Positions 5,213-23,352 of a stretch of 46,179 nt of DNA are shown here, piece after piece. Under the pieces are notes generated by a model, which had not been told where the DNA came from, did no database searches, and saw only the letters and a program-made list of their open reading frames with translations. Location of the stretch: NCBI GenBank assembly GCA_013813765.1, contig JACCRC010000203.1, positions 1-46,179 on the forward strand, read 5' to 3'. This DNA comes from Deltaproteobacteria bacterium (lineage in GTDB: Bacteria; Myxococcota_A; Polyangia; Haliangiales; Haliangiaceae). How positions within the stretch are numbered: position 1 is the first letter of the stretch; the number at the start of each line of letters is the position of its first letter. The position numbers and the translations under genes are program-made.

Positions 5213-6565
5213 ATGTACATCATCATTGTCGGCGCCGGCGAAGTCGGCAGCTATCTCGGCAGGATCTTGGTCGAGGAGGGCCATAACGTCGCGGTGATCG
5301 AGAACGATGAGAAACTCGCTCGCGATCTGGATGGCGAGCTCGACGCGCTGGTGGTCCAGGGCAGCGGCATCAGCCACGCCAACCTCCAGCGTGCAGGCAT
5401 CATGCAGGCGGATCTCCTGCTCGCCGTGACCGCCGGAGACGAGATCAACCTCATCACGTGCATGACCGCGGTCCGGCTCAAGAAGAACATCCGCACAGTC
5501 GCTCGGGTCCGGGAGGCCGCGTACCTCGCTGGCGAGGGAACATTGAGCGCCAGGGATCTCGGCCTGGATCTGCTGGTCGGGCCGGAGCGCGCGGTTGCTC
5601 GGGAGGTGGTGGAACTGCTGAGCTACGAGGGCGCCGGGAACGTTCACTACATGGCGAACGGCCGGATCGTCCTGCTGGAATTGCCGCTCACGTCCGACTC
5701 GCCGCTCGCTCACGAGTCGCTCGCCGAGCTACGCGACGTGTTCCCGACGCCATCTCTCGTAGCTGCGATCAGCGGGGCGCGAGGCGTCCGGATCCCACGC
5801 GGCAGTGACCGCCTTGGCGTCGACGATCGCGCGTACATCCTGACGCTGCCGAAGAACATCAACGAATTCTGGATTCTCTCGGGTAAGCCTTGGCATCACG
5901 TTCGACACGTCCTCATCATCGGCTGCGGGCAAATCGGGTTTCACCTCGCTACCGAGCTCGAGTCGCGCGGCCTGTATCCCACGATCATCGAGGTGAACGA
6001 GCAACGCGCCGAATGGGTCGCCAAGCGCCTGACCAACTCGATCGTGCTCCATGGTGATGCAAGCGAACCCGAGATGCTGCGCGAACAACTCGAGGAACGC
6101 GCGGACGCGGTCGTGGTTCTGCTCGAGGACGACGAGAAGGCGCTGCTCATTGGCTTGTTCGCCCGCCACCTCGGCGCCAAGAAGGTCATCGTACGTTCGG
6201 ACAAGCCGGCCTACGCTCCGATCGCGCACCGGCTCGGCATCGACGCGCTCATCAGTCCGAAACGCGCAGTCGCGGATCAGATCCTGCGCTTCGTTCGACA
6301 GGGCCGCATCGAATCGGCGCACATGCTGGGTGACCACGAGGTCGAGATCCTCGAGCTGCGTGTGCCCGCCGAACCACGGAATCCTGCGCTCATTACGCGC
6401 CCGCTCCGTGATCTGGACATTCCAGAGGGTGCCCTGTTTGGAGCGGTCCTCCGAGGCGAGCAGGTGATCATCCCAGATGGTGAGGCTCGACTTCAGCCCA
6501 ACGATGACGTGTTCATGATCTGCACCACCGAGGCGATCGGCGGCGTCGAGCGCCTCCTGTCCTGA
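5213..6565 (+). CDS. trkA: Trk potassium uptake regulatory subunit TrkA
   Basis: This 450-aa protein has the usual TrkA length and two RCK halves. Each begins with a Rossmann nucleotide-binding motif: [14 protein letters not shown] near residue 3 and [14 protein letters not shown] near residue 232. TrkA_C-type domains follow each half. It binds NAD(H)/ATP on the cytoplasmic face and gates the TrkH channel-like transporter. trkH starts 3 nt after its stop, so the two form an operon. The KdpDE-type pair lies convergent just downstream, giving a potassium-related locus. Confidence 0.95.
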
Positions 6566-6568
6566 ACC

Positions 6569-8032
6569 ATGCGCGCAGGCGTCATCCAACGAATTGTCGG
6601 CCGCATGCTCTGGTTCGCTGCCGGTGCTCAGATCATGCCGCTCCTGGTCGGGCTCATCAGCAGTGACGGCGCGTGGTGGGCCTTCGCGCCGCCAGGTGCA
6701 TGCGCTGTACTCGCAGCAGCTGGGTTCGTCAGGCTCCCCGCAGCGATGACCACGCCCCTCGATTCGCTGCGCAGGCGAGAGGGCTTTCTCGCGGTCGTCC
6801 TCGGGTGGCTGATCATCGTGTTCATCACGGCAGTCTCGTACCGGCTGAGCGGTGCATTCGAGAGCTTCGCCGAGTGCTTCTTCGAATCGATGTCGGGTTA
6901 CACCACAATGGGCGCGACAGTTGCGAACGACATCGAGGCGCTGCCGACCTCGGTCTTGTTCATGCGCTCACAGTCGCACTGGATCGGCGGCATGGGGATC
7001 ATCGTCCTCACGGTCGCGATCCTTCCGGAGCTCGCGGTCGGTGGCATGCAGCTTTTCGCGGCCGAATCGACCGGTCTGGACGCCGAGAAGCTTGCGCCTC
7101 GGATCTCTGCGACCGCGCGACGGCTCTGGGTGATCTACGTCGGCATCACGCTCGCGGAGACGTTGCTCCTCGTCGTGGCCGGAATGAGCGTCTTCGATGC
7201 GGTGAATCATGCGATGTCCACGATCGCGACCGGCGGGTTCTCGACGAAGAACGCATCGATCGCGGCATACGACAGCCTTGCGATCGAGCTGATCGTCCTG
7301 GTCTTCATGTTCTTCGCCGGCATCAGCTTCACGTTGCAATTTCGCGTTTTCGTTAATCGCAACGCGCGCCCGCTGCTCAAGAATCCGGAGGTCCGCCTCT
7401 ACACAGCTCTGACGCTCGGCGCGATCGTTCTACTCACGATCGACACGCTCGCCCGCGGCCCCTTCGATAATCTGTTCGTAGCGCTGCGGCAGGCAAGCTT
7501 CCAGGCCGTCGCGATCATCACGACCACCGGCTTCGGAACTGCAGACTTTGACCTGTGGCCGGAGTTGAGCCGGCTCGTTCTTGTTCTGTTGATGTTCGTC
7601 GGCGGCTGCGCAGGCTCGACCGCCGGGGGCTTCAAGGTCGTGCGGTTCTACGTCGTGATGGAGTACGCGTTCGTTCAGCTAAGGCGCCTGGTTCGGCCTC
7701 GCCTCGTCCAACCACTCCAGCTCGGTGAGCGCAGCATCTCTCGTGAGACCACGGAAGCCATCCTCGGATTCTTCCTCTTGTACTTCATCGTGCTCGTGGC
7801 GTGCAGCTTGGCGATGACAGCGCTCGGACTGGATATCGTCAGCGGAACGACCGCATCCATCAGCGCGCTCAATTCGATCGGGCCAGGGCTAGGCAGTGTC
7901 GGTGCCGCAGAAAATTTCGATGCGGTTCCTGAGGCCGGCCTCTACGTCCTATCGTTCGCGATGCTGCTCGGCCGACTCGAGATCTACACCGTGCTCGTTC
8001 TGTTCACGCGTCACTTTTGGCGGCGTGGCTGA
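6569..8032 (+). CDS. trkH: Trk potassium transporter membrane subunit TrkH
   Basis: A 487-aa polytopic membrane protein of the SKT (Trk/Ktr) family. All four filter-like P-loops are visible: [32 protein letters not shown] and [10 protein letters not shown]. The typical glycines are present, so a functional potassium pore is likely. It directly follows trkA and ends 18 bp from the convergent kdpE stop. No strong terminator is seen in that gap, so antisense read-through between the two operons is possible. Confidence 0.95.
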
Positions 8033-8050: not shown

Positions 8051-8737
8051 TCAGACGTCACGGAGGCGATAGCCGACGCCTGCTTCAGTTGTTAGCCACC
8101 GAGGCCGAGCAGGGTCCGTCTCAATCTTGCGACGGAGCGCTGACATGTGAACTCGCAGGTACTCGCCATGATGCGCGTTCTGCGGCCCCCACACCTCGTG
8201 CAGCAACTGCCGGTGCGTGAGCACCTTGCCTGCGTGACGCGCGAGAAACGCGAGCAACCGGAACTCGATCGGCGTCAGGTGCACGATGTTGGCATCGACC
8301 GACACCTCGTGCCGCGAGTGATCAATGCGGATCGGCCCGACCGCGACTACCGGATCTTCCGCAGCACCATGGCCTCGCGCATGTCGCAGCGCGACTCGAA
8401 TCCGCGCGAGCAGCTCGCTCGCTCCAAAGGGCTTGGTCAGGTAGTCGTCGGCGCCCGCATCAAGCGCCAAGACTTTGTCGTCCTCGCGATCACGTGCCGA
8501 GAGCACGATGATAGGTGTCTTCGACCGCTCACGAAGTCGCCGCAGTAACTCCATACCGTCGCCATCCGGTAGTCCCAGATCGAGCAGGATCGCAGCAGGT
8601 GGCGTCCCCGTGACGAGCGGCTCTGCTTCTCGTATGGAGCCAGCTTCCAGGACACGAAACCCGTTTGCACTGAGCGCCGTGCGCAGAAAACGTCGCATCG
8701 GCAACTCGTCTTCGACGATCAGGACCATTTCGTTCAT
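8051..8737 (-). CDS. kdpE: KdpE-like OmpR-family response regulator
   Basis: A 228-aa protein with an N-terminal receiver domain (LIVEDE acidic pocket, phospho-acceptor in LLDLGLPDGDG, switch Lys in YLTKPF) and a C-terminal OmpR winged helix (LTPIEFRLLAFLARHAGKV, then VHMSALRRKIE, GVGYRL). Start ATG 8737 overlaps the kdpD stop as ATGA, so the pair is coupled. KdpE normally activates kdpFABC. No kdpFABC lies in the window and the adjacent potassium system is trkAH, so trk is an inferred local target. Confidence 0.9.
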   Translation of the reverse strand: MNEMVLIVEDELPMRRFLRTALSANGFRVLEAGSIREAEPLVTGTPPAAILLDLGLPDGDGMELLRRLRERSKTPIIVLSARDREDDKVLALDAGADDYLTKPFGASELLARIRVALRHARGHGAAEDPVVAVGPIRIDHSRHEVSVDANIVHLTPIEFRLLAFLARHAGKVLTHRQLLHEVWGPQNAHHGEYLRVHMSALRRKIETDPARPRWLTTEAGVGYRLRDV

Positions 8738-10677
8738 GAGGCCGCCAGGTGTTCTGCCACGGGTGCCGGACCTGCTGCGACACCGACGCGGAACGTTGCT
8801 CCACCTCCAATGCGTTGCTCGGCCTCGATCCGCCCGCCGTGGGCGAGAGCGATTCCTCGGCAAACGGCAAGGCCCAGTCCGGCGCCTGCCGTGCGAACAC
8901 CGGGGCCACGAACGAACTTCTCGAACAGCTGATCGTGTGGACCTGGTGGCAAGCCTGGACCTCGATCGGAAACCTCGATGATGGCCTCGTTCCCTTCGGC
9001 TCGAACGCGAACCTCGATGGGTGTGCCGGCTGGCGTGTGCTTGGCGGCATTCTCGACAAGGTTGATGACGATTTGTTCGAAGAGCACAGGCTCGACACGC
9101 GCGCCAACGTCGGGGTCGACGGCAACAGCGACAGGGTGGGATCCTAGAAGCGAATCGCAACGTCCGAGTGCGGACCCGATGATCTCCTCGAGAGGCACCC
9201 AGTCTCGACGTAACGCTGCACCGCTCTCGACGCGCGTGATTGCGAGCAGGTTATAGAGAATCGAACCGAGCCGCTCCGCCTCGTCCACGATCGTGTCCAG
9301 CGATTCGACCTGATCTGCAGTGAGGTTCGATGCGGAGTCTCGCAGCGCGCTAGCCGTGCCCGAGATGATCGCCAGAGGTGTACGCAGGTCGTGCGAGACC
9401 GTGGACAAGAGCGAGCTGCGAACCTCTTCGGTCTGCGCCCGCAACGCCGCATCATGAGCTTCGCGCCCGAGGCGAAGCCTTGCGATGGCGACGCCTGCTT
9501 GACGCGCAATCGCCTCCAGCAGCGTTCGCGCGTCGAAGTCGATCCGTCGCCGTGCGCGATCGAGCTGCACCGCCACCACACCCGCAGACTGCTCACCGTC
9601 CCAGAGCGGAACCGCGAGGAGCCGGGCATCAGGTTGCATTTCCGTACCACGACCAGCGGCACGACGATGACGGTGCGCCCACAAGGCGACAGCCATCTCC
9701 TGTTCCGCGAGGGGTGCGAGGCCAGCAACGGCCTCGAGCTCCCCATCGTGGCGCGAGACCAGTACCGACGCTGGGGCCCGTAACGCGTCCTCGATCTGAG
9801 CGACGACGGCAGCGGCCACGTCCGCCGTGCTGCGTGCTGCGGCCGCGTGCCCTGTAAACGAAAGCAGAGCCGACGTACGTCGCTCGCGCAAGCGGCTCGC
9901 TTCCTCGGCATGGCGCATGCGTGCCACCAAGGTTCCCGTTGCAGTGCCGACGGTGAACATCACAGCGAACGTGATCAGGTGATCGAGATCCGCGACCGCC
10001 AACGTGTAGAGCGGCGGCACGAAGAAGAAGTTGTACGCCGCGACCGAGAGCGCCGCCGCGAGAACTCCCGGCGCGCGACCGCCCAGCGCGGCGACAATGA
10101 TCGCAGCGAGGTACAGCATCGCCTGATCCGTCAGCGAGACGTGGGCGAGCAGCCCGATGCCGGTGGCGAACAAGATCGCGAAGACGGCACGTGCATACGC
10201 GACGAAGCCCGTGGCTGCGCCGCGCTCGATGACTCGAGGCAAGACCTCCTCGCTGGGAGCGATGACATGGAGCTCCATCGGCCCCGAATCACGCACGAGC
10301 GCGTCGATCAGACTCCCATGCAGTCGATCGCGCCATCGAGAATGCGTTGGCTTGCCCGCCACGATACGTGTTGCGCTGTGCTCGCGCGCGAACTCCAGTA
10401 CTGCCTCCGCCACCGATGAGCCGAGGACATACGCGACCTCAGCGCCCAGCGATTCCGCGAGCCCAAGGTGATTCTCGACGCGATCTCGATCGACCTGGGA
10501 GAGCGGCGCCGCTGCATTCAGCGCGACGTGTACCGCATGCCACCTGGCGCCCAAGCTCTCTGCAAGTCGTCTGGACGCGTGAACGAGACGCTCGGAGCCT
10601 GGACTCGGCCCAACGCAAACCACCACGCACTCGTGCGCGGGGCCCTCGATGGCGGCGGTCGGGTCGATGTCGTTCAC
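8734..10677 (-). CDS. kdpD: KdpD-like sensor histidine kinase lacking the N-terminal P-loop domain
   Basis: A 647-aa protein, compared with about 895 aa for classical KdpD. It starts directly with the universal-stress-protein domain (VVVCVGPSPGSERL, residues about 15-145). A four-helix DUF4118 membrane module (about 155-255), a GAF-like domain, HisKA (STVSHDLRTPLAII) and HATPase (NLVENAAKHTP; GAGLGLAVCRG) follow. The KdpD domain with its Walker A motif is absent, and only 82 nt separate the start from the next gene, so it is not encoded upstream. Start GTG 10677 is supported by a TAGCCT box. It partners KdpE through an ATGA overlap. Confidence 0.9.
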   Translation of the reverse strand: MNDIDPTAAIEGPAHECVVVCVGPSPGSERLVHASRRLAESLGARWHAVHVALNAAAPLSQVDRDRVENHLGLAESLGAEVAYVLGSSVAEAVLEFAREHSATRIVAGKPTHSRWRDRLHGSLIDALVRDSGPMELHVIAPSEEVLPRVIERGAATGFVAYARAVFAILFATGIGLLAHVSLTDQAMLYLAAIIVAALGGRAPGVLAAALSVAAYNFFFVPPLYTLAVADLDHLITFAVMFTVGTATGTLVARMRHAEEASRLRERRTSALLSFTGHAAAARSTADVAAAVVAQIEDALRAPASVLVSRHDGELEAVAGLAPLAEQEMAVALWAHRHRRAAGRGTEMQPDARLLAVPLWDGEQSAGVVAVQLDRARRRIDFDARTLLEAIARQAGVAIARLRLGREAHDAALRAQTEEVRSSLLSTVSHDLRTPLAIISGTASALRDSASNLTADQVESLDTIVDEAERLGSILYNLLAITRVESGAALRRDWVPLEEIIGSALGRCDSLLGSHPVAVAVDPDVGARVEPVLFEQIVINLVENAAKHTPAGTPIEVRVRAEGNEAIIEVSDRGPGLPPGPHDQLFEKFVRGPGVRTAGAGLGLAVCRGIALAHGGRIEAEQRIGGGATFRVGVAAGPAPVAEHLAAS

Positions 10678-10684
10678 GAGGTGC

Positions 10685-10690
10685 AGGCTA
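10685..10690 (-). promoter_or_regulatory. -10 box of near-leaderless kdpD promoter (TAGCCT)
   Basis: On the minus strand TAGCCT predicts +1 at 10678, one base before GTG 10677. It forms a compact divergent promoter pair with the 10726-10753 promoter. Confidence 0.45.
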
Positions 10691-10725
10691 CCTCACGGCA
10701 AGCTCGCGTTCGCGGCCGGGTGAGC

Positions 10726-10753
10726 TTGACACGCCTATGGGCACGGTCAGGAT
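10726..10753 (+). promoter_or_regulatory. Leaderless promoter of the 10760 operon (TTGACA, 16 bp, CAGGAT)
   Basis: A perfect -35 hexamer TTGACA (10726-10731), a 16-bp spacer and CAGGAT (10748-10753) place +1 at 10760, exactly the A of the first ATG. No Shine-Dalgarno is needed or seen. This is the best promoter in the window and drives the four-gene overlapping operon. Confidence 0.6.
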
Positions 10754-10759
10754 GACCGA

Positions 10760-11971
10760 ATGCGCGCCGCCGACACCCCGACGACATCTCCGCTTGCGGG
10801 AGAGCTTCTTCGGCAGTTCGGCAGCCCGCTCTACGTCTACGACGCCGACGTCGTGCGCGCGATGTATGCGCGGTTCGTCGGCGCGTTCGACTACCAGCCG
10901 CTGCACATCCACTACGCGATCGTGTGCAACAAGAACCGCTACCTCGTGCGCCTGCTCGCGGGCCTCGGCGCGGGGATCCATGCGAACACGCCGGGCGACG
11001 CGTTCGCCGCCCTCGCGGCGGGTGTGCCCGCGGATCGCATCGTGTACAGCGGGACGAACCTCGACGAGCAGGACTTCCGATTCTTGCTCGATCGCGGGAT
11101 CCGCATGAACCTCGATTCGCTCGATCAGCTGCGCGATCGTGCGCGGCTCGGGCGCGCAACGGATCGCACCGACATCGGCATGCGGTTCTTGATCGACGAC
11201 GAGGATCGTCCCAACCGGATCGGCATCACCCGCGGCGAGCTGCCCGAGGCGATCGCGATCGCGAATGCGGCGGAGCTGCGAATCACCGGACTGCACATGT
11301 ACGCGGGCACGAACACGCGGCGCGCCGGTCGGTTCGTCGAGTGTATGGAGCGCCTCGTCGAGGCCGCGACCCAGCTGCCCGATCTCGCGTGGATCGATAT
11401 CGGTGGCGGCTTCGGTGTCGCCTACGACGATGACGAGCCCGAGCTCGAGCTCGAGCAGCTCGGCCGCGAGGTCTCGGCGAGGATGCGGACACTCTCGGAG
11501 GCACGCGGACCGATCGAGCTGATCGTCGAGCCTGGCCGCTACCTCGTCGGCACGGCGGGCAGCCTGCTGACCACCGTGGTCTCGGTCAAGTCACACGGCG
11601 GTCGCCGCTACATCGGCGTCGACACCACCGTCGGTAACATTGTCGTGCCGAGCGTCTATCACACGCGCCATCGGATCGAGCTCGTTGCCGAGGCGGCGCC
11701 GGTCCTCGATGCACCGACGGACGTGTGCGGCAACACCACGCACTCGCGCGACTATCTGGGACGCAACGTGCGCTTGCCCGCGGTCGTGCCCGGCGACGTC
11801 CTGCGCCTGCGCGACGTCGGCGCCTACGGCTACGCGATGTCGAGTCACTTCCTCAATCGCCCGCGCCCGGCCGAGGTCGTGGTCGATGGTGCCGGCGTGC
11901 ACCTCACGACGCGGCGCGAGACGTTCGCGGACCTCGTCGCGACCCAGGTCGACGCGCAGGGGGATCGATGA
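10760..11971 (+). CDS. Diaminopimelate-decarboxylase-fold protein with PLP lysine replaced
   Basis: This 403-aa protein aligns end to end with fold-III PLP decarboxylases (LysA type). It keeps DIGGGFG, EPGRYLV and the C-terminal GAYGYAMSSHFLNRPRPAEV. The signature YA-x-K-x-N reads YAIVCN at residues 52-57, so the Schiff-base lysine is V55. A lysine lies three residues later (K58), in what aligns as a non-catalytic position. The ring-stacking His of HIGS is Tyr (HMYAGT) and the C-E-S active-site motif reads T-H-S (NTTHSRD). It is likely a pseudoenzyme or a strongly altered enzyme. It starts a four-gene operon; its stop overlaps the next ATG (ATGA). Confidence 0.85.
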   Translation: MRAADTPTTSPLAGELLRQFGSPLYVYDADVVRAMYARFVGAFDYQPLHIHYAIVCNKNRYLVRLLAGLGAGIHANTPGDAFAALAAGVPADRIVYSGTNLDEQDFRFLLDRGIRMNLDSLDQLRDRARLGRATDRTDIGMRFLIDDEDRPNRIGITRGELPEAIAIANAAELRITGLHMYAGTNTRRAGRFVECMERLVEAATQLPDLAWIDIGGGFGVAYDDDEPELELEQLGREVSARMRTLSEARGPIELIVEPGRYLVGTAGSLLTTVVSVKSHGGRRYIGVDTTVGNIVVPSVYHTRHRIELVAEAAPVLDAPTDVCGNTTHSRDYLGRNVRLPAVVPGDVLRLRDVGAYGYAMSSHFLNRPRPAEVVVDGAGVHLTTRRETFADLVATQVDAQGDR

Positions 11972-13713
11972 GCGGAATCTGCGGCTGGGTCGGTGACGCC
12001 GACGACAAGGACACGCTGGAACGGATGCTCGGCGCGATCGACTACCGCGGCGACACCTCGGTGCGCGAGGACCTGCGCGGCGCGACACTCGGCTATCGGT
12101 GGTGGGCCGGCCGTCCCGGCAAGTCTTCCGGCGTCGCGCGGGATGGAGTCCGCGCCGCCGTGTGCGCCGGCACGTTCGCGCCACCGGTCGAGTCCCCTGC
12201 CCGCTCGATCCTCGAACGCACCGCGCGCGAGCCCGCCGCGCTCGACGATGCGGATGGCGCGTTCGCATTCGCGGTCTACAACGAGGAGACCCGCGAGCTC
12301 GTGCTCGGCCGCGACCCGTTCGGCGTGCGGTCGCTGTACTACGTCGAGCACGCAGGCCGGTTCTACTTCGCGACCGAGCTCAAGCAGCTGCTCGCGATCC
12401 CGACGCTGCCGGTCGAGATCGATCCGGCCGCGGTCCACAAGTACCTGACGTTCTCGTTCGTCCCGGGCGAAGCCGTCCCGGTGAAGGGCATCAAGCGCGT
12501 GCTACCTGGTCACCTGCTGCGCTACCGCGCGGGCGCGATCACGACGCAGCCGTACTTCACGCTCACCGAGTCGATCGACGAGGAGCTTCGCGACGTCAAG
12601 ACGGCGGTGCGGCGCGTCCGCGAGCTCGGCAAGCAAGCCGTCGGCCGCCGACTCAACGGTGAGTCCGAGGTTGGCCTGTTCCTGTCGGGCGGCATCGACT
12701 CGTCCGTCGTCGCGCTGTGGTTGCGTTCCCTCGATGCCAAGGTGCGGGCGTTCAGCCTCGACTTCGGCGATCGCAGCGTCGAGCGCGAGCAAGCGACCGA
12801 GGTCGCGAAGCTGCTCGAGATTCCGCTCGAGCTCGTGAAGGTCTCGGGCCCCGACATCGAAGCGGTGTTCTGGGATGTCGTCGCGAAGCTCGATCTCCCG
12901 TTCGGCGACGCGGTCACCGCACCGCAGTACCTGCTCGCGAAGACCGCCCGCGCGGCCGGCGTCACCGCCGTGTTCAACGGCGAGGGCGGCGATCAGCTGT
13001 TCGGCGGCTGGACGAGCAAGCCGATGATCGCGGCCGAGATGTACGGCCACCTCTACGAGCACCAGGAGACCGAGAGCCGCGAGGAGACGTACCTCCACTC
13101 GTATCATCGGTTCTACGGTCTCGAGGACGAGCTCTACACCGAGCGGTTCCACGCCGAGGTCGGTGGCCCGGGGCAGCGCCGCGCGTATCTCACGCCGTAC
13201 CTCGGCTCGGCCAGCGAGGGCGCCTTCCTCAACCGCGTTCGTCTCGCTGACATCTCGCTCAAGGGCTCGCAGAACATCCTGCCGCGCGCGGAGCGGATGA
13301 CGAATGCGTTCGGTCTCGACGTGCGGGTACCACTGTTCGATCGCAAGCTCGCCGAGGTCTCGTTCAAGCTGCCCCCCGAGCTCAAGCTCCACGGTGCGTG
13401 CGAGAAGTACGTGCTCAAGCTCGCGGTCCAGAAGCGGCTGCCCGAGGACATCGTGTGGCGCCGCAAGTTCGGCATGTCGGTCCCTGTCACGGACTTCGTG
13501 CTCGGACCGCTCGCGCCGCTGTTCGAGGAGCTGCTCGGCGAGGCGTCGATCGCGAAGCGCGGCATGTTCCGACCCGCGTACGTGCGCTCGCTGCTCGCAG
13601 GTCACGACGTGCCGAGCGAGCTCCGCAAGCGGCGAATCGGCGAGCGGCTGTGGGCCCTGGCGATGCTCGAGGCGTGGATGCGAACGTTCATCGACAGGCG
13701 CGGTGCCGCGTGA
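11968..13713 (+). CDS. Asparagine-synthetase-like ligase 1 (degenerate glutaminase domain)
   Basis: A 581-aa AsnB-type protein. The N-terminal Ntn domain keeps its scaffold (GRDPFGVRSLYYV, FATELKQLL) but begins MSGICG rather than MCGI. The nucleophilic Cys2 is thus Ser, and the LGHRRL arginine motif reads LGYRWW. The ATP-pyrophosphatase domain has SGGIDSS at residues 240-246. The usual SGDGGDE loop reads NGEGGDQ. It probably adenylates a carboxylate and uses ammonia or an amine rather than glutamine. Start ATG 11968 overlaps the upstream stop; its own stop overlaps the next GTG (GTGA). Not a housekeeping asnB by context. Confidence 0.85.
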   Translation: MSGICGWVGDADDKDTLERMLGAIDYRGDTSVREDLRGATLGYRWWAGRPGKSSGVARDGVRAAVCAGTFAPPVESPARSILERTAREPAALDDADGAFAFAVYNEETRELVLGRDPFGVRSLYYVEHAGRFYFATELKQLLAIPTLPVEIDPAAVHKYLTFSFVPGEAVPVKGIKRVLPGHLLRYRAGAITTQPYFTLTESIDEELRDVKTAVRRVRELGKQAVGRRLNGESEVGLFLSGGIDSSVVALWLRSLDAKVRAFSLDFGDRSVEREQATEVAKLLEIPLELVKVSGPDIEAVFWDVVAKLDLPFGDAVTAPQYLLAKTARAAGVTAVFNGEGGDQLFGGWTSKPMIAAEMYGHLYEHQETESREETYLHSYHRFYGLEDELYTERFHAEVGGPGQRRAYLTPYLGSASEGAFLNRVRLADISLKGSQNILPRAERMTNAFGLDVRVPLFDRKLAEVSFKLPPELKLHGACEKYVLKLAVQKRLPEDIVWRRKFGMSVPVTDFVLGPLAPLFEELLGEASIAKRGMFRPAYVRSLLAGHDVPSELRKRRIGERLWALAMLEAWMRTFIDRRGAA

Positions 13714-14768
13714 AGTGCATCAAGTGCCAGGCCGACTGCACCTATCCGCAACGCTCCGACGGGCGCTGCCCGAAATGTCGCCAGCAGTTCGCGTTCGAGC
13801 CGCGCACGGGCGCGATCATCTCCGACGCGGGCTTCGAGTCCGCGATCTCCGCGGTGTCATCGCAGGGCAGCGTGCGGTTCCTGCCCGAGCACGTGTATTA
13901 CGAGCTGGCGCGACGCAAGAAGGGTGGCGGCGGAGGACGCGCCTTCATGTACACGCTCGGCGGCGCGGGCGCGATCGCCGCGATCGTCGCGACCCCGCTG
14001 TTCCTGATCGGGACCGCCGCGTGTATCGGCATCGGGGCCATGATGCCTCCGAAGAAGACCGTCAACGTCGAGCGCTCCACGTTCGATCAGATGTGGAGCC
14101 GCTGGCTCGACGTCCATGGGGCTCCGAAGGGGCTGATCGTGCGCCGCGACGCGACCCGCGGTCCGTATCGCTCGGAGACGCAGCACGCGGATATTCAGCA
14201 CTACTCGTTCGATCGCGCGGTGATCTGCGATCGTCCCGAGACCGTCGACGTGCTGCTCGCGAACAACTTCCACTTCGAGAACAACTGTGCGGTGCTCGCG
14301 GTCACCGGCTATCCCGAGCACGCGTTCTCGACCGTGCGCGACATGCTCAAGAACAACCCGCGCCTGACGGTGTTCGCGCTGCACGACGCGACGCCCGAGG
14401 GCTGCGGCCTCGCCCACAAGCTGGCGAGCGACGAGCGGTGGTTTCGCGGCAGCGCGCGCGTCGTCGAGGTCGGCATCCGCCCGGCCCACGCGCGTTCGCT
14501 CAAGGGGGTATGGCGCGCGGCGACCACCCCGGTCGACACGGCGGTCGTGACCGATGACGAGCGCCGCTGGCTGACGAACTACACGTGCGAGCTCGCAGCG
14601 ATCCGGCCCGAGCAGGTGATCAAGCGGCTGTTCACCGCGATCACGAAGGAAGACACGCTCCAGCCCGCCAGCGACTACATCGCGGACGGCGGCGACTACT
14701 ACGTCGACTCGTTCTCTTTCTCGAGGAACTCCGAAGCCTCCGACGGCGGCGACGATAGTTTCGGGTGA
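13710..14768 (+). CDS. Zinc-ribbon, membrane-anchored TOPRIM-like protein
   Basis: 352 aa from GTG 13710, which overlaps the previous stop. Residues 3-23 hold a zinc ribbon (CIKC ... CPKC). A hydrophobic hairpin spans about residues 79-112 (LGGAGAIAAIVATPLFLIG and following) after a Gly-rich linker. The C-terminal part resembles a TOPRIM fold as in topoisomerase VI/Spo11 or primases: VICDRPET (170-177, Asp in place of the usual Glu), AVTGYP (197-202) and LHDATPEGCGL (224-234, compare DxDPxG). A Ser/Asp/Gly-rich acidic tail ends the protein. TOPRIM assignment is by motif only. It lies between two AsnB-like genes with 4-nt overlaps on both sides. Confidence 0.7.
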   Translation: MKCIKCQADCTYPQRSDGRCPKCRQQFAFEPRTGAIISDAGFESAISAVSSQGSVRFLPEHVYYELARRKKGGGGGRAFMYTLGGAGAIAAIVATPLFLIGTAACIGIGAMMPPKKTVNVERSTFDQMWSRWLDVHGAPKGLIVRRDATRGPYRSETQHADIQHYSFDRAVICDRPETVDVLLANNFHFENNCAVLAVTGYPEHAFSTVRDMLKNNPRLTVFALHDATPEGCGLAHKLASDERWFRGSARVVEVGIRPAHARSLKGVWRAATTPVDTAVVTDDERRWLTNYTCELAAIRPEQVIKRLFTAITKEDTLQPASDYIADGGDYYVDSFSFSRNSEASDGGDDSFG

Positions 14769-16498
14769 TCGCGATGGCGGGCCCGGTCGTCCTCACACCA
14801 CGCGCGGGCCCATCGTTCGCCCGCCGCAACCTGCGCGAGCGCCCGGCAGGTCACGCGCGGATCGCCGGTGCCAGCCGTGAGCTACACGCGGATGCCCGGG
14901 CGCGCCTGCGCGCGAGCCTCGGCGCGGGAACCCAGCTCCTCGACGCCGAGCCCGGGGCGCTGGTCGCGGACTTCGATGGCTGCAGCCTCGACGGCCGCGC
15001 GCTCACGACGCTGACCGAGCTCGGTGCGGTGATCCGCGACGGCCGGATCGCCGAGGTCGAGGGTGCGTTCGTGATCGCATGGCGTGATCACGCCGGAGCT
15101 CTCCATCTCGCGCGCGATGCGATCGGTCACCGCACCGCGTACTACGCCGAGCACGCCGGCCAGCTCGTGTTCGCGTCGCACCTCTGCGCGCTGCTCGACG
15201 CGTTCGAGCTGCCGCGGCGGATCGATCTGCGCTCGGTCGCCGCGTTCCTGTCGTGTGCGTACATCCCCGGCCGCGGGACGATGGTCCAGGGCGTCCACGA
15301 GCTGCTGCCGGGCGAGCAGATCAGCCACCACGGCTCGCTGTCACGACGCACGTGGTGGGCGATGCCGGCCGAGCCGGCGAACGCCGCCGCGACGCCCGAT
15401 GAAGCATCGAAGATGCGGGTAAGCCTGAGAAACGCGCTCGAGCGCGTGATCGGCGCCGCGCTCCCCGACGGCCCCGTGTGTGCGTCTCTATCGGGCGGCA
15501 TCGACTCGAGCCTCGTCGTCGCGATCGCGCGCCGCCTGCACGCACCTCCAGTCCGCACGTTCTCGATCACGTTCGGAGACGAGTACAAGAACGAGCTCGC
15601 CTATAGCTCGGTCGTCGCCGCCCACACCGGCAGCGAGCATCACGTCGTGCATCTGCGCGCGGACACCGTGATCGCGCACCTCGACGACACCATCGCGCGG
15701 ATGGACAAGCCGAACGGCGATCCGCTGACGGTCCCGAACGCGCTGCTGTTCCAGGCGATGAGCGAGCACGGCGTCGTCGCGCTCAATGGCGAGGGCGGCG
15801 ATCCGAGCTTCGGCGGCCCGAAGAACCTGCCGATGCTGCTCGCCGAGCTGTACGGCAATCCCGACGGTGAGCCTGACGCGTTCGAGCGCGAGCGGAACTT
15901 CCTGCGGGCCCACCTCAAGTGCTTCGACGACCTGCCGGCGATGCTGACCGCCGACAGCTACGCCCAGGCCAACACGCCACCGCTCGAGCAGGAGCTCGCG
16001 CCGTGGTTCAACGACCCGCGGTGGCCGACCTTCGTCGGCATGCTGATGGCGATCAACGTCCAGTTCAAAGGCGGCCACCACATCTTGCCGAAGGTCGATG
16101 CGCTCGCGGAGCCGTTCGGCGTGCTGCCGCGCTCGCCGCTGTTCGCGAAGTCGATCGTCGAGCTCGCATTCTCGATCCCGTCGACGCTCAAGCTGTCGGG
16201 CTCGACAGAGAAGTACCTCCTCAAGGAGTCGGTGCGGGACCTGCTGCCCGGCACGATCGTCGATCGCGCAAAGAGCGGGATGCTGGTCCCGGTCGAGGGT
16301 TGGTTCCAGACCACGCTCGCGAAGGAAGCGCGTACGCGGATCCTCGACGGCCTGTCGGGCACACGCATCTTCCGGCGCGAGATGCTCGAACAGCTGCTCG
16401 CCGGCAAGCAGCTCGGCCTGCGGCCGCGGCGCGGCGTGAAGATCTGGCTGCTGATCACACTCGAGGCGCACCTGCGCGCGCTTCGGCTCACGCTCTAA
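14765..16498 (+). CDS. Asparagine-synthetase-like ligase 2 (no glutaminase nucleophile)
   Basis: 577 aa from GTG 14765, which overlaps the previous stop (GTGA). The N-terminal third has an eroded Ntn domain: no MCGI start, but LARDAIGHRTAYYAEH and FASHLCALL remain. The synthetase domain has SGGIDSS at residues 243-249 and the loop NGEGGDPSFGG, the same unusual NGEGGD as in the 11968 gene. Helical C-terminal motifs of AsnB (KYLLKES, KSGMLVPV) are kept. The two ligases probably arose by duplication and may act as a pair. No glutamine hydrolysis is expected. Confidence 0.85.
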   Translation: MIAMAGPVVLTPRAGPSFARRNLRERPAGHARIAGASRELHADARARLRASLGAGTQLLDAEPGALVADFDGCSLDGRALTTLTELGAVIRDGRIAEVEGAFVIAWRDHAGALHLARDAIGHRTAYYAEHAGQLVFASHLCALLDAFELPRRIDLRSVAAFLSCAYIPGRGTMVQGVHELLPGEQISHHGSLSRRTWWAMPAEPANAAATPDEASKMRVSLRNALERVIGAALPDGPVCASLSGGIDSSLVVAIARRLHAPPVRTFSITFGDEYKNELAYSSVVAAHTGSEHHVVHLRADTVIAHLDDTIARMDKPNGDPLTVPNALLFQAMSEHGVVALNGEGGDPSFGGPKNLPMLLAELYGNPDGEPDAFERERNFLRAHLKCFDDLPAMLTADSYAQANTPPLEQELAPWFNDPRWPTFVGMLMAINVQFKGGHHILPKVDALAEPFGVLPRSPLFAKSIVELAFSIPSTLKLSGSTEKYLLKESVRDLLPGTIVDRAKSGMLVPVEGWFQTTLAKEARTRILDGLSGTRIFRREMLEQLLAGKQLGLRPRRGVKIWLLITLEAHLRALRLTL

Positions 16499-16557
16499 CT
16501 TCCCGCTTCCTGTGGACCCGCGTTCGATGGCAAGCTCCTCCGGTCCAAGGGGGTCTC

Positions 16558-17472
16558 ATGTCGCTGTCTAAGGTTGTGTTGCTCTCGACGCTGCTGGCCG
16601 GATGCGGTGGTGATGGGGGGAGCAGCATCGATGCGGCGCCCGGCTCCATCGACTCGGCCGCCCCCGATGGATGGACGTCGCTCCTCGAGGGCGACTGGAC
16701 GCTACCGGCCGGCCAGCCCGACACGTACTACTGCGTGTACGCGACGGTTCCGCGCGACATGTACATCAAGGCGTTCCGCCCGATGATCCCGGTCGGGACG
16801 CACCACACGGTGCTGACGCTGTTCAGTGGCGCTTCGCCCGCCGACGGCACGCACCTGTGCAACGTCGGCACGAACGGCCAGAGCATGATCTACGGTTCAG
16901 GCGTCGGCACGCCAGACTTCGTGTTCCCGCAGGGCGTCGGCCTCCACCTCAAGGCCGGGCAGCGGCTGATTCTCAACCTTCACCTCTACAACGCGACCGA
17001 CGACACCATCTCTGGTCGCTCCGGTACGTACATCCAGGAAGCGACGGCGAGCGAGATCCAGAACGTCGCCGAGATCGTGCTGGCCGGCCCGACGTTCACG
17101 CTGCAGGTTCCGACCGGCATGTCGACGCAATCGGGCGGCTGCAACATCTCGGCGATCACGAGCCAGCCCATCCAGGTGTTCTCGCTCTCGGGGCACATGC
17201 ACAAGACCGGCACGCGCGTGAAGTCGGTCATCACGCGCGGCACGCAGGAGATCGTGCTCCAGGACGAGCCCTACAACTTCGAGAAGCAGCTGTTCCATAT
17301 GGTGGACCCGCCGATCACGCTCCAGCCGACCGACAAGCTGACCACGTACTGCACGTACAACAATCCCGGCGCGCCCAAGCGGTTCGGCGACGGGTCGGAC
17401 GACGAGATGTGCTTCAGCGACCTCTTTTACTATCCGGCGCAGGGCGCGAACTTCACCTGCTCGGGCCTGTGA
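16558..17472 (+). CDS. PHM-like copper type II monooxygenase lipoprotein
   Basis: A 304-aa lipoprotein (lipobox LLAG-C16) with an AAGGGGG ribosome binding site before ATG 16558. Copper ligands typical of peptidylglycine alpha-hydroxylating monooxygenase are present in order: HH in GTHHTVL, His in LNLHLYN, HxH in SGHMHKTG, and Met in DDEMCF. Paired cysteines are also retained. It would hydroxylate an aliphatic carbon using ascorbate and oxygen, on the periplasmic or outer face; the substrate is unknown. It lies 59 nt after the four-gene operon on the same strand, so co-expression is possible but unproved. Such lipoproteins also occur alone in myxobacteria. Confidence 0.8.
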   Translation: MSLSKVVLLSTLLAGCGGDGGSSIDAAPGSIDSAAPDGWTSLLEGDWTLPAGQPDTYYCVYATVPRDMYIKAFRPMIPVGTHHTVLTLFSGASPADGTHLCNVGTNGQSMIYGSGVGTPDFVFPQGVGLHLKAGQRLILNLHLYNATDDTISGRSGTYIQEATASEIQNVAEIVLAGPTFTLQVPTGMSTQSGGCNISAITSQPIQVFSLSGHMHKTGTRVKSVITRGTQEIVLQDEPYNFEKQLFHMVDPPITLQPTDKLTTYCTYNNPGAPKRFGDGSDDEMCFSDLFYYPAQGANFTCSGL

Positions 17473-18671: not shown

Positions 18672-19403
18672 TCAGCGCCGGGCGAGCGCCGAGGTGCGGG
18701 CGGCGATCACGTGCGCGGCGATCTCGCTGGTTCCGACGCCGCGCGTGACCTGCGCGAACACGGTCGGCCCGTCCCCGCGCATCTTCTTCGCGTCGCGATC
18801 CATGACCGCGAGGTCGGCACCGACGTGCGGGGCGAGATCCGTCTTGTTGATCACGAGCAGATCGCTCTGCGTGATGCCAGGCCCGCCCTTGCGAGGAACC
18901 TTGTCGCCGCCGGCAACATCGATCACGTAGATCGTGTAGTCGACGAGCTCGCGACTGTACTGAGCGGCGAGGTTGTCGCCGCCGCTCTCGACGAACAGCA
19001 GCTCTGGGCGGACGCTCGCCATCAGATCTTCGAGGGCAAGCAGGTTCGGGCTGATGTCCTCGCGGATCGCGGCGTGCGGACAGCCGCCGGTCTCGACCGC
19101 GCGGATCTGAGCCGGCGGCAGCGCCTCGTGGCGGGTCAAGAACTCCGCGTCTTCGCGCGTGAAGATGTCGTTCGTGACGACACCGAGACGCACGATGTCG
19201 CGGAGCTGGCGGCACAGTGCGAGCAAGAGTGCGGTCTTGCCGCTGCCGACCGGACCGCCGATGCCGACGGTGAACGAGCGCTGCGCGAAGTCACGATCGC
19301 GCGGCGCATCGCGCTCGCCGAAGCGTCCCGCGTGCGGCCAGTGCTCGTGGGTGTGGCCATGCGTATGTGGGTGGTCGTGATCGTGATCGTGGTCGTGGCC
19401 CAT
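18672..19403 (-). CDS. ureG: Urease accessory GTPase UreG with His-rich N-terminus
   Basis: 243 aa. The first 25 residues alternate His and Asp ([17 protein letters not shown]), a nickel-binding tract. The SIMIBI GTPase follows: GPVGSGKT (Walker A), the nickel CPH motif in [18 protein letters not shown], and NKTD for guanine. UreG delivers Ni(II) to apo-urease with UreF and UreD, using GTP. No ureE is present in the cluster, so the His tract probably takes over nickel binding. It follows ureF by 11 nt. Confidence 0.95.
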
Positions 19404-19414
19404 GGTTGGATCTC

Positions 19415-20077
19415 CTAGCTCTGGAACAGCCGTGAGTAGAGACGGTCGTGGGTGGCCTGCACCAGCTCGACGATCGGTGCCGACTGCGCGACGTCGTCGA
19501 GCGTCGAAGTGCGCGCGCGCACGGAGGCCGCCTCGAGCGTCGGATGCAGCCGCAGATGTACCGCCTGTGCCTCCGTCGGTCCGAGCACGCCGAGACGGAT
19601 CGCACTCGACAGCACGCCTCGTGCCGCGAGGTGGAGGTACGTCGCGAGCGCATCGTCACGCGTGACGTCGAGCGCGCGCGTGACGAAGCCAAACGCCGGT
19701 GCGAGGTGACCGAGCAGCTCGCCTCGCATCACGCGGTCACGCGCGTCGACGAGCAACGTGTGGCGGAACGCGCGGGCCGCCGTGTCGAGGAGTGCGCGAC
19801 CCTGGTTCTTGCTCGCGCGCGCGGCGATATGGCTCCACGTCAGGACGCCCGCGTAGCGGTCGACCTCCTCGAGCCGCGCCGGATCGTCGTGCGTCGCGCT
19901 GACCAGTGGCAACGCACCTCGCGCGGTCTGCCAGACCGTATCGACGACGAACGCCTCGACCTCCGCTGCGCTGCGCAGCTCACCCGCCTGGATCATGGCT
20001 TCGAGACCCGCGGAGTGAGCGAACCCACCGGTCGGGAACGCCGAGTCGGCGAGCTGCAGGACGATCCATGCGGTCAT
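19415..20077 (-). CDS. ureF: Urease accessory protein UreF
   Basis: 220 aa from ATG 20077, which begins [22 protein letters not shown], the conserved UreF N-terminus. This fixes the start, although the frame is open further upstream. All-helical protein with the usual conserved GLE and a C-terminal [11 protein letters not shown] tail. It bridges UreD and UreG during urease maturation. The ureC stop is 2 nt upstream. Confidence 0.93.
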
Positions 20078-20079
20078 GG

Positions 20080-21795
20080 TCAGAACAGCGAGAAGCGCTG
20101 GGTCAGCGGCAGCGAGGTGGCTGGCGCGCAGGTGAGCAGCTCGCCATCGGCACGAACCGCGTAGGTCTCGGGATCGACCTCGAGCTTGGGCAACGTGTCG
20201 TTGAGCTTCATGTGCCGCTTGCCGATGCCGCGGCAACCGCGGACAACCGAGAGCTTCTTGGTCAGGGCCAGCGCACGGAGGTGGCCTTCCTGCATCGCAC
20301 GCTCGGAGACAAACGCGAGTGACGTCGCACCGATCGCGCGACCGCGCGCACCGAACATCGGTCGCATGTACTGCGGCTCCGGTGTCGGGATCGATGCGTT
20401 CGGATCGCCCATCTGAGCCCAGGCGACGAATCCCCCCTTCAGCACGAGCTCGGGTCGAATGCCGAAGAATGCCGGCCGCCACAACACGAGGTCCGCGAGC
20501 TTACCGATCTCGACCGAGCCAACGTCGTGCGAGATGCCGTGTGCGATCGCGGGGTTGATCGTGTACTTCGCGACGTAGCGGCGGATGCGGTTGTTGTCGT
20601 TGTCGCCGCGTTCCGACGGTAGACGACCGCGCTGCTGCCGCATCTTGTGCGCGGTCTGCCACGTACGCGTGAGCACCTCTCCGACGCGGCCCATCGCCTG
20701 GCTATCGCTCGAGATGATGCTGAGCGCGCCGATATCGTGGAGGATGTCCTCGGCGGCGATCGTCTCGCCGCGAATCCGGCTCTCGGCAAACGCGACGTCC
20801 TCTGGGATCTCGCGATCGAGGTGATGGCAGACCATCAGCATGTCGAGGTGCTCGTCGAGCGTGTTGATCGTGTAAGGCCGCGTCGGGTTCGTGGAGCTCG
20901 GGATGACGTTCGGCTCGCCGCACACGCGGAGGATGTCGGGGGCGTGGCCGCCGCCTGCACCCTCGGTGTGATAGGTGTGGATCGTTCGTCCCTTGAACGC
21001 CGCGATCGAGTCGTCGACGTAGCCCGACTCGTTGAGCGTGTCGGTGTGGATCGTGACCTGGATGTCCTCGCCCTCGGCGACCGTGAGGCAGCAGTCGATC
21101 GCGGCCGGCGTCGTGCCCCAGTCCTCGTGCAGCTTGAGCCCGATCGCACCGGCGCGGATCTGATCGATCAAACCGTTCGACATCGACGTGTTGCCCTTGC
21201 CGGTCAACCCGATGTTGAGCGGAATCGTGTCCGTCGCCTGCAGCATGAGCTCGATGTGCCGCGCGCCGGGCGTGCACGTGGTCGCCTTGGTTCCGGTTGT
21301 TGGCCCGGTACCGCCGCCGATGAACGTGGTGACGCCGCTCGCGAGCGCCTCGTCCGCCTGCTGCGGCGCGATGAAGTGGACGTGCGCATCGATACCCCCG
21401 GCGGTGAGGATCAGCCCCTCCCCTGCGATCGCCTCCGTCGTGACGCCGACGATCATCGACGGTCCGACACCGACCATCACGGTCGGATTGCCCGCCTTTC
21501 CGATGCCGACGATGCGACCGTTCTTGATGCCGATGTCCGCCTTGTAGATGCCGGTCCAGTCGATCACGGTCGCGCTCGTGATGACGAGATCGAGCGCCTC
21601 GGAGTCGTCGGCACCGGCGAACTGGCCCATCCGATCGCGAAGGACCTTGCCACCGCCGAACTTGCACTCGTCGCCGTAGCTCGCGTGATCGAGCTCGATC
21701 TCGGCGATCAGATCGGTATCGCCGAGTCGAAGCCGATCGCCGACGGTGGGCCCATAGAGCTCCGCGTAGTGACGGCGCTCGATCGTGTAGCTCAC
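20080..21795 (-). CDS. ureC: Urease alpha subunit UreC
   Basis: 571 aa, full length. Active-site features are intact: the carbamylated lysine in GLKLHEDWG, nickel histidines in HVHF and [15 protein letters not shown], the flap catalytic histidine in MVCHHLD, and the metal Asp in the late TINPAIAHG region. It hydrolyses urea to ammonia and carbamate in the cytoplasm. GTG 21795 overlaps the ureAB stop (GTGA). Confidence 0.97.
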
Positions 21796-22496
21796 GAGTC
21801 CTCGCGTGCGTGAGGGCCAGCGCTGACCTCACCGCGGCGCCGCCCTGCGACCAGTCGCACCATGCGCTGCTCTCCCGGCTCGAACCGGACCGCCGCGCCC
21901 GCAGGGATGTCGAGGCGCATCGCGGCCGCAGCTGCCCGATCGAACACGAGCGCACGGTTGACCTCGATGAAGTGGAAGTGACTGCCGACCTGGATCGGCC
22001 GATCGCCGGTGTTGGTGACGAGGATCTCGAGCGTCGGCCGGCCCTCGTTGAGGACGATCTGACCGGGCGCGCACAGCAACTCGCCGGAGATCGCCTGCAC
22101 AGGATCGGTCGCGAAGAGCGAGAGCGCGGGCACCGGGAGAAAGCTGCCGTACAGGGCGAGCGCGAGATCACCGTTGTCCGCGACGATGGGGTGATGCACC
22201 GTCACGAGCTTGGTGCCGTCGGGCAGCGTCCCTTCGACCTGCACCTCGGTGACGAGCTCGGGAACTCCGTCCATCACCTGCCGCCGGCCGAGCAGCGTGC
22301 GCCCGAGATCCATCAGCTCTGCGACGGAACGACCGTCACGGATCAGCTCGAGGAGCTGCGTGGCGATCAACGCGACCGCCTCGGGGTAGTTGAGACGAAC
22401 TCCGCGCGCGAGCCGCTTCTGCGCGAGGAACCCGGCGTTGTGGAGCAGCAGCTTGTCGAGGTCGCGAGGCGCGAGGCGCACGCTGCTTGCTAGCAT
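21792..22496 (-). CDS. ureAB: Fused urease gamma-beta subunit UreAB
   Basis: 234 aa from ATG 22496. Residues 1-100 are UreA ([36 protein letters not shown]). After a short linker the UreB beta-barrel follows ([50 protein letters not shown]). Fusion of gamma and beta is known in Helicobacter and some other bacteria; most bacteria encode them separately. The usual UreA start fixes ATG 22496. Confidence 0.93.
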
Positions 22497-22509
22497 GCGT
22501 GGCGACGCG

Positions 22510-23352
22510 TCAGAACTTGCGCGACCAAGGATCTTCGCCGACGGCGCGACAGACCTCGCGGAGCAACTCCCGCGTGGTCTCGACGACCGCGTGCACCCGA
22601 TCGCCCGCGATCCGGAACATCGCACCGGTCGCGAACGGACTCCCGGCGATGATCACGGGGTCGTCTCTGCGCACGGGAATCTCGGCGAGCGCGGCCAGCT
22701 GCGCCGTCGCGATGAGGTCGACGCGCGGTCCGCAGATCACGACCGTGCCGATCGCCTCGAACCGGCCGAGGCGGCGCGCGAGGCTGCCGTCCTCGGGGTC
22801 GAGCACGAAGCGGTCGACGAGTCGCCGCGTGCCATCGAGCGAGATCGAAAGCGTCGAGTCGAACCGGGTCGCGCTCCAGCGTTCGCCGTGAGCGACACGG
22901 CCCGCGGTGACGACATCGACCAGCGCGAGCGACGCGGAGGCGTCGAGCTCGATCGACGTGAGCTGTGTGAATGTCGCATCGCGATACGGGACGATCGGAT
23001 CGGGGACGATCAACGCCGTGGCGTCGCCGAGGGCGCGCACCCGCAGCTGCTGCGAGGTCGTGCCGCGATACGCCTTCGTCGAGGATTGCGTGGTGATCAC
23101 GCAGGTCGCGCCCGGATGGATCGCGATCTCACACGCGACGTTGTCGCCATGGACGAGACCGCCCCCGAGGCTGCTCGTGACGACCCACGCCGCGCGTCCG
23201 GCGGCCCGCGGAGTGAGCAGGCGCAGGGGACCGGCCGCGCGCGCGCGATGGACCTCGCTGCGATCGAAGCCGGCTCGGACGACGACCTGCGCGGTGGCGA
23301 GCGATCCGAGCACAGCGCTCGATAGCACGGACTCCCTACCACCGGAACGCAT
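22510..23352 (-). CDS. ureD: Urease accessory protein UreD
   Basis: 280 aa. UreD (UreH) hallmarks: [41 protein letters not shown] and the C-terminal PWSRKF. It forms the first complex with apo-urease and channels nickel. It is the promoter-proximal gene of the cluster, in the order ureD-ureAB-ureC-ureF-ureG. A GTG about 27 nt inside is an alternative start. Confidence 0.9.

Follow-up and report, generated by a model that had tools for sequence, protein, structure and literature searches.

A near-invariant Phe-Gly C-terminus on a membrane Toprim-like protein encoded beside asparagine synthetase-like ligases in a patchily distributed operon

We analysed an operon of four genes, A to D, on a 46,179-nucleotide contig of a deltaproteobacterium (JACCRC010000203.1 of assembly GCA_013813765.1; this whole stretch is called the window). 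The operon encodes a decarboxylase-fold protein (A), two AsnB-like ligases (B and D) and a membrane protein with a Toprim-like domain (C). Our main finding is that C ends in Phe-Gly (FG) in almost every relative, and that this end goes with a D-type AsnB gene in the same genome, as judged against a small set of FG-less relatives. The FG end, its link to the D-type AsnB and the lack of any case in which A occurs together with an unrelated double-cupin protein are new; the folds are known, and the system is without known counterpart. The operon and the parts of C are as follows, in window coordinates.

10760..11971, plus strand: gene A, a diaminopimelate-decarboxylase-fold protein of 403 amino acids without the lysine that holds pyridoxal 5'-phosphate (PLP)
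11968..13713, plus strand: gene B, an AsnB-like ligase of 581 amino acids, with the N-terminus MSGICGW where MCG is expected
13710..14768, plus strand: gene C, 352 amino acids, with a zinc ribbon, a transmembrane hairpin, a Topo-VI-type Toprim fold, a disordered acidic tail and the end SFG
13716..13778, plus strand: zinc-ribbon motif CxxC...CxxC of C, with C3, C6, C20 and C23
13932..14042, plus strand: two membrane helices predicted for C, at residues 75-93 and at 95-111 (AlphaFold2 model; hydrophobicity judged by eye)
14175..14504, plus strand: Toprim-like core of C, about residues 156-265 (Foldseek; borders set by eye)
14667..14765, plus strand: Ser/Gly/Asp-rich tail of C, whose last two codons (14760-14765) are Phe-Gly
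14765..16498, plus strand: gene D, an AsnB-like ligase of 577 amino acids, NGEGGDP type

C, the gene without a family, was used as bait in a scan of genome contigs. The scan matched 183 stretches, 137 of which encode a relative. The best 80 of these 137 were kept, giving 78 loci, and the partners were then placed by tblastn of the four proteins. The FG end was present in 90 of 92 C-family open reading frames (ORFs) of at least 250 amino acids. After clustering at 60% identity, 35 of 36 clusters contained FG and 34 were wholly FG. When the full C cluster was taken, with ORFs down to 80 amino acids and fragments included, the count was 93 of 109. Only 4 of the 2651 other ORFs of the same loci ended in FG, one of them an A protein (L045). 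Neither the AsnB-like proteins nor A have a fixed C-terminus, the commonest last two residues being found in 5 of 124 and 7 of 63, respectively. The product of a fifth gene, E, described below, ends in VK in 26 of 51.

The end is carried on a variable linker. Among 44 aligned C sequences (alignment A1), the distance from P300 to the end ranged from 21 to 117 residues; the linker is 45% Ser, Gly or Asp and is net negative in 42 of the 44. AlphaFold2 gave a predicted local distance difference test (pLDDT) score below 50 over the last nine residues (344-352), which predicts a disordered tail. The C protein of L106 has no CxxC and no evident transmembrane segment, and FG is still present.

Linkage was counted in the 75 loci, from 96 examined, that have a C or C-like gene and at least 4 kb on either side. 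Both B and D were found in 55 of these loci, B only in 10, D only in 5 and neither in 5. Linkage of C to AsnB genes is far above chance.

Divergent C-like proteins of about 21-33% identity, also obtained in searches of Myxococcota, served as a natural control. Where an AsnB gene lies next to the C-like gene or is separated from it by a single gene (L104-L108), the protein always ended in FG (5/5); without an AsnB neighbour (L109-L112) it never did (0/4). A tenth case, L144, was matched later by the profile and had both an AsnB gene and the FG end, as predicted, so that FG was present in 6 of 6 divergent proteins near a D-type AsnB and in 0 of 4 without one. In the six divergent systems with a single AsnB, the enzyme shows NGEGGDP, the signature of D, and a midpoint-rooted tree places it on the D side. 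In two divergent systems a TPR-repeat protein lies between AsnB and C (L105:5804-6739 and L108:6910-7887).

Three further loci (L042, L070 and L092) carry an FG-ended C and no AsnB in the examined stretch. All three genomes have a D-type gene elsewhere, and two have a B-type gene too. The unlinked D-type genes are 60-62% identical to D of L055, have no MCG, and carry NGEGGDP and KxGM. In the four FG-less genomes and in G248, AsnB matches were 26-38% identical over parts of D, and none of the examined ones had the signatures NGEGGD and KxGM; most of these matches carry MCG. On the evidence of this small FG-less set, the FG end and a D-type AsnB occur in the same genomes.

Pfam and NCBIfam give nothing above threshold for C or for the E protein, and C has no NCBIfam model. 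Below the gathering score, C matched the Pfam family TOP6A-Spo11_Toprim (E-value 0.0056) and zinc ribbons. The AlphaFold2 model of C (mean pLDDT 87.9) consists of a zinc ribbon, a helix hairpin (residues 75-111), an alpha/beta domain and the tail. Foldseek ranked the Topo VI A subunit (1d3y_B) first, with probability 1.00 and E-value 5.6e-3; the match was partial (TM-scores 0.33 and 0.39), and no Foldseek match had an E-value of 0.001 or less. When PDB sequences were searched with the C profile, the sole matches were zinc ribbons of RNA polymerase subunit P/Rpo12, with E-values of 0.44 and 0.98. The four putative zinc-binding Cys, C3, C6, C20 and C23, are invariant in all 44 sequences.

In the Toprim core, H188, E190, H225 and G231 are invariant, and D226 is found in 35 of 44. 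Of the Toprim metal site, the Glu is thus kept (E190, 44/44), whereas the DxD is not, its second Asp being present in 1 of 44. Topoisomerase-type action by C is unlikely on these residues, since the DxD pair is not kept. Compared with the Toprim domain of Topo VI A and Spo11, C is alike in predicted fold; it differs in the partial match, the unconserved DxD and the membrane anchor. Tandem C copies were seen in L064 (three intact), L089, L048, L066 and L081, with the FG end kept, which suggests diversification of C.

B and D were matched by Pfam and NCBIfam as Asn_synthase with a GATase remnant. Curated cut-offs excluded three identities: glutamine-hydrolysing asparagine synthase (TIGR01536; B 257.8 and D 187.8, below 267.1), the XrtA/PEP-CTERM exosortase/exopolysaccharide amidotransferase (TIGR03108; 237.2 and 196.1 against 816.9) and lasso peptide cyclase (NF033535; 143.1 and 92.1 against 525). 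The glutaminase Cys is absent from all AsnB-like proteins (N-terminal MCG in 0 of 126). The synthetase motifs are retained: SGGxDS[SA] in 126 of 126, NGExGD in 126 of 126 and KxGM in 125 of 126. From these motifs, B and D should activate a carboxylate with ATP without using glutamine. The lasso cyclase McjC, beta-lactam synthetase and CarA are AsnB-family enzymes that act on small substrates or peptides and form amides without the glutaminase Cys. B and D resemble them in family and in the missing Cys; they differ from the lasso cyclase in score (143 against 525) and as a paralogue pair side by side with a tailed membrane protein.

A was assigned to the Orn/DAP/Arg decarboxylases, with lysA as the best model. 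Its 269.4 bits are below the cut-off of 297.9 for diaminopimelate decarboxylase (TIGR01048), and that identity was rejected. Residues 15-397 align with diaminopimelate decarboxylases (including 2p3e), almost end to end. The position of the PLP lysine is Val55 in A (codon 10922-10924), and no lysine stands there in any of 64 aligned sequences (A and 63 homologues). Relative to the decarboxylases, Lys is replaced by Val, the His of HIGS by Tyr and Cys-Glu by Thr-His/Tyr; the family has CGNTT[HYF]SRD in place of the active-site G-P-x-C-E-x-x-D. The window's genome has a LysA-like paralogue on another contig (C425) with YAVKAN, FHIGS and GPICETGD, where A has YAIVCN, MYAGT and GNTTHSRD. An identity with the housekeeping LysA was likewise rejected, on the score below the curated cut-off and on the presence of this second, LysA-like gene.

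A keeps the GGG, EPGR and GAYGY loops, which bind the PLP phosphate in its relatives; at sequence level it has both the fold and the phosphate-binding loops of diaminopimelate decarboxylase. The same likeness extends to BtrK, and the difference lies in V55, Y181 and T327, which show no variation among 32 of 32 aligned sequences, A being one of them; the same holds for H74, N76, P78-D80, C323-T327 and S329-D331. Because the replacement residues are themselves invariant, the pocket looks rebuilt and under selection, that is, repurposed rather than decayed.

The original prediction, made from the letters of the window, had described a PLP-fold pseudoenzyme, two amide ligases and a membrane TOPRIM-like protein, with catalytic changes in all three enzyme-like members. 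Structure prediction supports the description of C, and the 126 AsnB-like proteins bear out the altered ligases. The changes hold for A and for the glutaminase half of B and D, whose synthetase half is intact. A PLP fold without its lysine is borne out for A; 'pseudoenzyme' is too weak a word for a protein with invariant replacement residues.

In lineages without A, a family of double-cupin proteins (bicupins, family F) lies near C and AsnB. Examples beside C/AsnB, with A missing, include the following.

L106:9574-10233: bicupin
L107:8123-8782: bicupin
L036:7594-8259: bicupin

Nine aligned members have invariant YIDGC, HxHP and HPM..T. Three members scanned gave Pfam Cupin_2 and no NCBIfam model above cut-off. 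In the same 75 loci, A only was found in 51, the bicupin only in 11, neither in 13 and both in 0. L037 and L116 are one contig, which makes A only 50 of 74 distinct loci, and the 13 negative loci include three FG-less C-like loci. Among 15 chosen whole genomes, an A-type protein (at least 44% identity) was found in 5, a bicupin (at least 50%) in 4 and both in 0, with one further weak bicupin match. No bicupin was found in the window's genome in a search with a positive control. A and the bicupin are probably alternative parts for one job. Part of their mutual exclusion is shared descent, since most A loci are cyanobacterial.

A third partner replacing A or the bicupin was sought in Betaproteobacteria and rejected: besides the system's own genes, 5-6 of 6 loci share only repeats, which we take to be Bug-receptor-like, and antisense frames. 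The B-C-D loci L030 and L032 are contigs of metagenome-assembled genomes titled Bordetella parapertussis and resemble other betaproteobacterial assemblies of the set; the title may be a database misnomer. The fifth gene, E, is a membrane gene usually found before the cyanobacterial-type operon (L045:6268-6888 and 54 other loci). Its product has N-terminal helices, one predicted transmembrane helix and an Ig-like domain (best Foldseek match PA1606, 3n6y). E was not detected in the window's genome (best E-value 0.8).

By record title, the relatives came from Myxococcota, Cyanobacteria, Proteobacteria, Planctomycetes, Acidobacteria and Armatimonadetes, with cyanobacterial titles for about three quarters of the 78 loci. 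Three gene orders were seen. A-B-C-D in one order and strand occurs in L026, L028, L031, L035, L037 and L040, with E inserted in L031; B-C-D without A occurs in ten loci (L027, L029, L030, L032, L033, L034, L036, L038, L039 and L041). The third arrangement, B-A-C, was found in 52 of the 96 loci, with E in front in 51 of those; here D is encoded opposite to the other genes in 33 and in their direction in 3, and 16 have no D in the examined stretch. The original prediction had named Myxococcota as the group in which to test whether the four genes stay together. The unit is indeed conserved, and that scope was too narrow: most of the 78 loci carry cyanobacterial titles, E is usually added in these, and the bicupin substitutes for A in some lineages. 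Homologues scattered singly, the pattern it had set against its own reading, describe a minority of loci only.

The borders of the unit are sharp. The closest copy, L026, gave a single DNA alignment (84.5% identity) over window positions 10798-16497 and nowhere else in the window, and none of the six A-B-C-D loci tested, each 10 to 21 kb long, gave a DNA match outside the operon. C matched in 19 of 282 Myxococcota genomes, distant relatives and the window's own counted, and the C profile in 14 of 266; G085, the sole genome of the same family listed, gave no match. A plasmid of Gloeothece verrucosa PCC 7822 bears E-B-A-C-D, whose genes are annotated from E to D as hypothetical, asparagine synthetase B family, decarboxylase, hypothetical and asparagine synthase-related. 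This copy was found by protein similarity, not by the tail; its C ends in QSFG, and VTN replaces KAN in its A. The operon is a sharply bounded, patchy, transferable module.

In the window, all gene coordinates at 10760-16498 and the overlaps ATGA (A-B, 11968-11971), GTGA (B-C, 13710-13713) and GTGA (C-D, 14765-14768) were exact, and D has an in-frame ATG at 14774. Together with the linkage of B and D to C in most of the 75 loci, this upholds the claim that the genes form a unit. The leaderless TTGACA/CAGGAT promoter proposed with it is unsupported: a search of 10400-16700 found 0 sigma-70-type promoters (0.3 expected from shuffles), and CAGGAT agrees with TATAAT at 3 of 6 positions. On the 3' side, a gene for a secreted-like protein (16560-17472, plus strand), which we take to resemble copper type II monooxygenases, lies beyond the point where the DNA matches of six relatives stop. 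Divergent from the operon (8051-10677, minus strand) are a response regulator and a sensor kinase, presumably KdpE/KdpD-like, beside genes at 5213-8032 that we assume to be Trk-like. Further downstream (18672-22625, minus strand) are presumed urease genes (UreG, UreC).

These parts point to membrane-associated, glutamine-free, ATP-dependent amide formation. The C-terminal carboxylate of C is the most economical candidate substrate, because nothing else in the most specific protein is as constant, and because it accompanies the ligase. This fits the original prediction, which suggested that a carrier or peptide might be amidated at the membrane, and gives it a concrete candidate carboxylate. 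Our leading proposal, which we hold tentatively and with rather less than even confidence, is that D, perhaps with B, adenylates and amidates the C-terminal glycine of C in the style of LysX acting on LysW, without homology to either. The operon would then be a transferable membrane-associated amide-ligation module. C would be anchored by its helix hairpin and would offer a flexible acidic tail with a Phe-Gly-COOH end. The Cys-less D would adenylate the terminal glycine carboxylate with its PP-loop, B being perhaps a second, specialised copy, and the activated glycine would be joined to an amine rather than to glutamine-derived ammonia. C would thus resemble LysW as a carrier or modifier tagged at its tail, but its ligase would be unrelated. 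The role of A may be to hold a phosphate-bearing amine, or the adduct, for delivery or sensing, with the bicupin as its substitute in other lineages. What we infer is that ligation takes place, which amine is used, that the tail faces the cytosol and what A does.

The proposal has precedents in chemistry. LysX is an ATP-grasp enzyme. In ubiquitin-like proteins, Atg8 and Pup, a C-terminal Gly on a flexible tail has its carboxylate activated and joined to an amine, and processed Atg8/LC3 ends in ..TFG. In letters, ..TFG is closer to the ..[DE]SFG of C than is the EDWGE of LysW. C differs from the ubiquitin-like proteins and Pup in that its model is not a beta-grasp, the set has no E1 or PafA homologue and the proposed ligase is of AsnB type. 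LysW is described as a protein with zinc-binding Cys in which the last residue of the C-terminal EDWGE is the site of ligation by LysX, and LysW and ArgW, once ligated, as carriers that serve other enzymes (PMC10433800). C is like LysW/LysX and ArgW/ArgX in being a zinc-type Cys protein, with four candidate zinc-binding Cys in all 44 sequences, whose conserved C-terminal motif is here the proposed site of an ATP-dependent ligation. It is unlike them in its FG tail, AsnB-type partner, membrane hairpin and Toprim fold, and in the lack of an ATP-grasp gene in the conserved set. On present evidence neither LysW nor Atg8 is homologous to C. A bolder form of the proposal, which we think unlikely, is C-terminal glycine conjugation powered by AsnB and spread horizontally between phyla. 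The amine to which C, with its Atg8-like ..[DE]SFG, would be joined might belong to a lipid head group or to a protein, or be a phospho-amine bound by A. Such a system would have converged, with a different ligase superfamily, on the chemistry of ubiquitin-like proteins and LysW.

Several points weigh against ligation at the tail. The conserved motif is short (an acid or Gln, a small residue, Phe-Gly), and a docking peptide would show an equally conserved C-terminus. Two of the 92 C ORFs have no FG end, both being extra copies beside an FG-ending copy. A [DE]-x-F-G-stop pattern covering part of the possible codons gave 14 sites in the window's genome, 6 with a true stop; sites other than C lie in frames of 14 to 132 codons, and C is the only long gene with that end under this partial-codon pattern. 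No protease, acyl carrier or amine-making gene was seen constant across loci, and the Toprim domain has no part in the model. The FG-less control is small (n=4, from two genera), and the DNA downstream of C in L109 covers 1.2 kb only, up to the contig end. Ten of the 75 loci have B and no D within the examined stretch.

The strongest rival, which we hold only slightly less likely than ligation, is that the FG tail is an SSB-like docking peptide for the AsnB-like enzymes (or for A or the bicupin), which would thereby be recruited to the membrane. The tail would remain unmodified, and a small molecule or lipid would be amidated. The disordered acidic linker with a fixed hydrophobic end suits this well, and AsnB-family relatives act on small substrates or peptides (the NCBIfam scores of B and D for such families being below cut-off). 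Docking explains equally well why FG pairs with D-type AsnB among the divergent proteins and at the three loci without a linked AsnB. However, docking tails usually keep more than 2-4 residues, whereas here roughly acid-small-Phe-Gly is kept across phyla, and a free carboxylate beside a carboxylate-activating enzyme is a suggestive coincidence. The genome-level link of FG to D is now firmer, yet it fits ligation and docking alike and leaves our weighting of the two unchanged.

It is improbable that the system belongs to secondary metabolism, with the AsnB pair amidating a diffusible substrate supplied by A and C serving as a membrane sensor or scaffold with a structural tail. AsnB and decarboxylase-fold genes do share biosynthetic clusters, as the original prediction remarked (matches to TIGR03099 and TIGR03108 were below cut-off), and the unit is mobile and once plasmid-borne. 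Nevertheless, A lacks the lysine in 64 of 64 sequences, so the usual PLP route is not expected; in ORF clustering across the 78 loci, C, AsnB, A and E were the only families shared by most loci; and the most specific protein of the set is C, in which the end varies least. The Topo VI A match, the patchy distribution and the island-like sharp borders might point to a nucleic-acid or defence system with the Toprim domain at its centre. This is very improbable given the lost DxD (D226 in 35 and the second Asp in 1 of 44), the membrane anchor, the AsnB partners and a PADLOC scan of six proteins that gave only a generic QueC-like match of B. A phage-shock partner system was also considered and rejected; the text of PMC11237479 contains none of the words 'asparagine', 'AsnB' and 'toprim'.

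Full-text searches of the literature, whose scope excluded preprints and most subscription journals, gave no paper describing the gene set by title and abstract, in agreement with the earlier statement that no described pathway with this set is known. Even if docking is true, a decarboxylase fold that has lost its cofactor lysine, gained a new invariant pocket and is apparently interchangeable with a cupin is an unusual case of repurposing. Should the tail prove to be the substrate, AsnB-type enzymes would rank with E1, PafA and LysX as activators of protein C-termini, and many cyanobacterial 'asparagine synthase' and 'decarboxylase' genes would need renaming. The near-fixed last two residues of C may thus mark an unrecognised bacterial way of attaching to, or docking on, the end of a protein.

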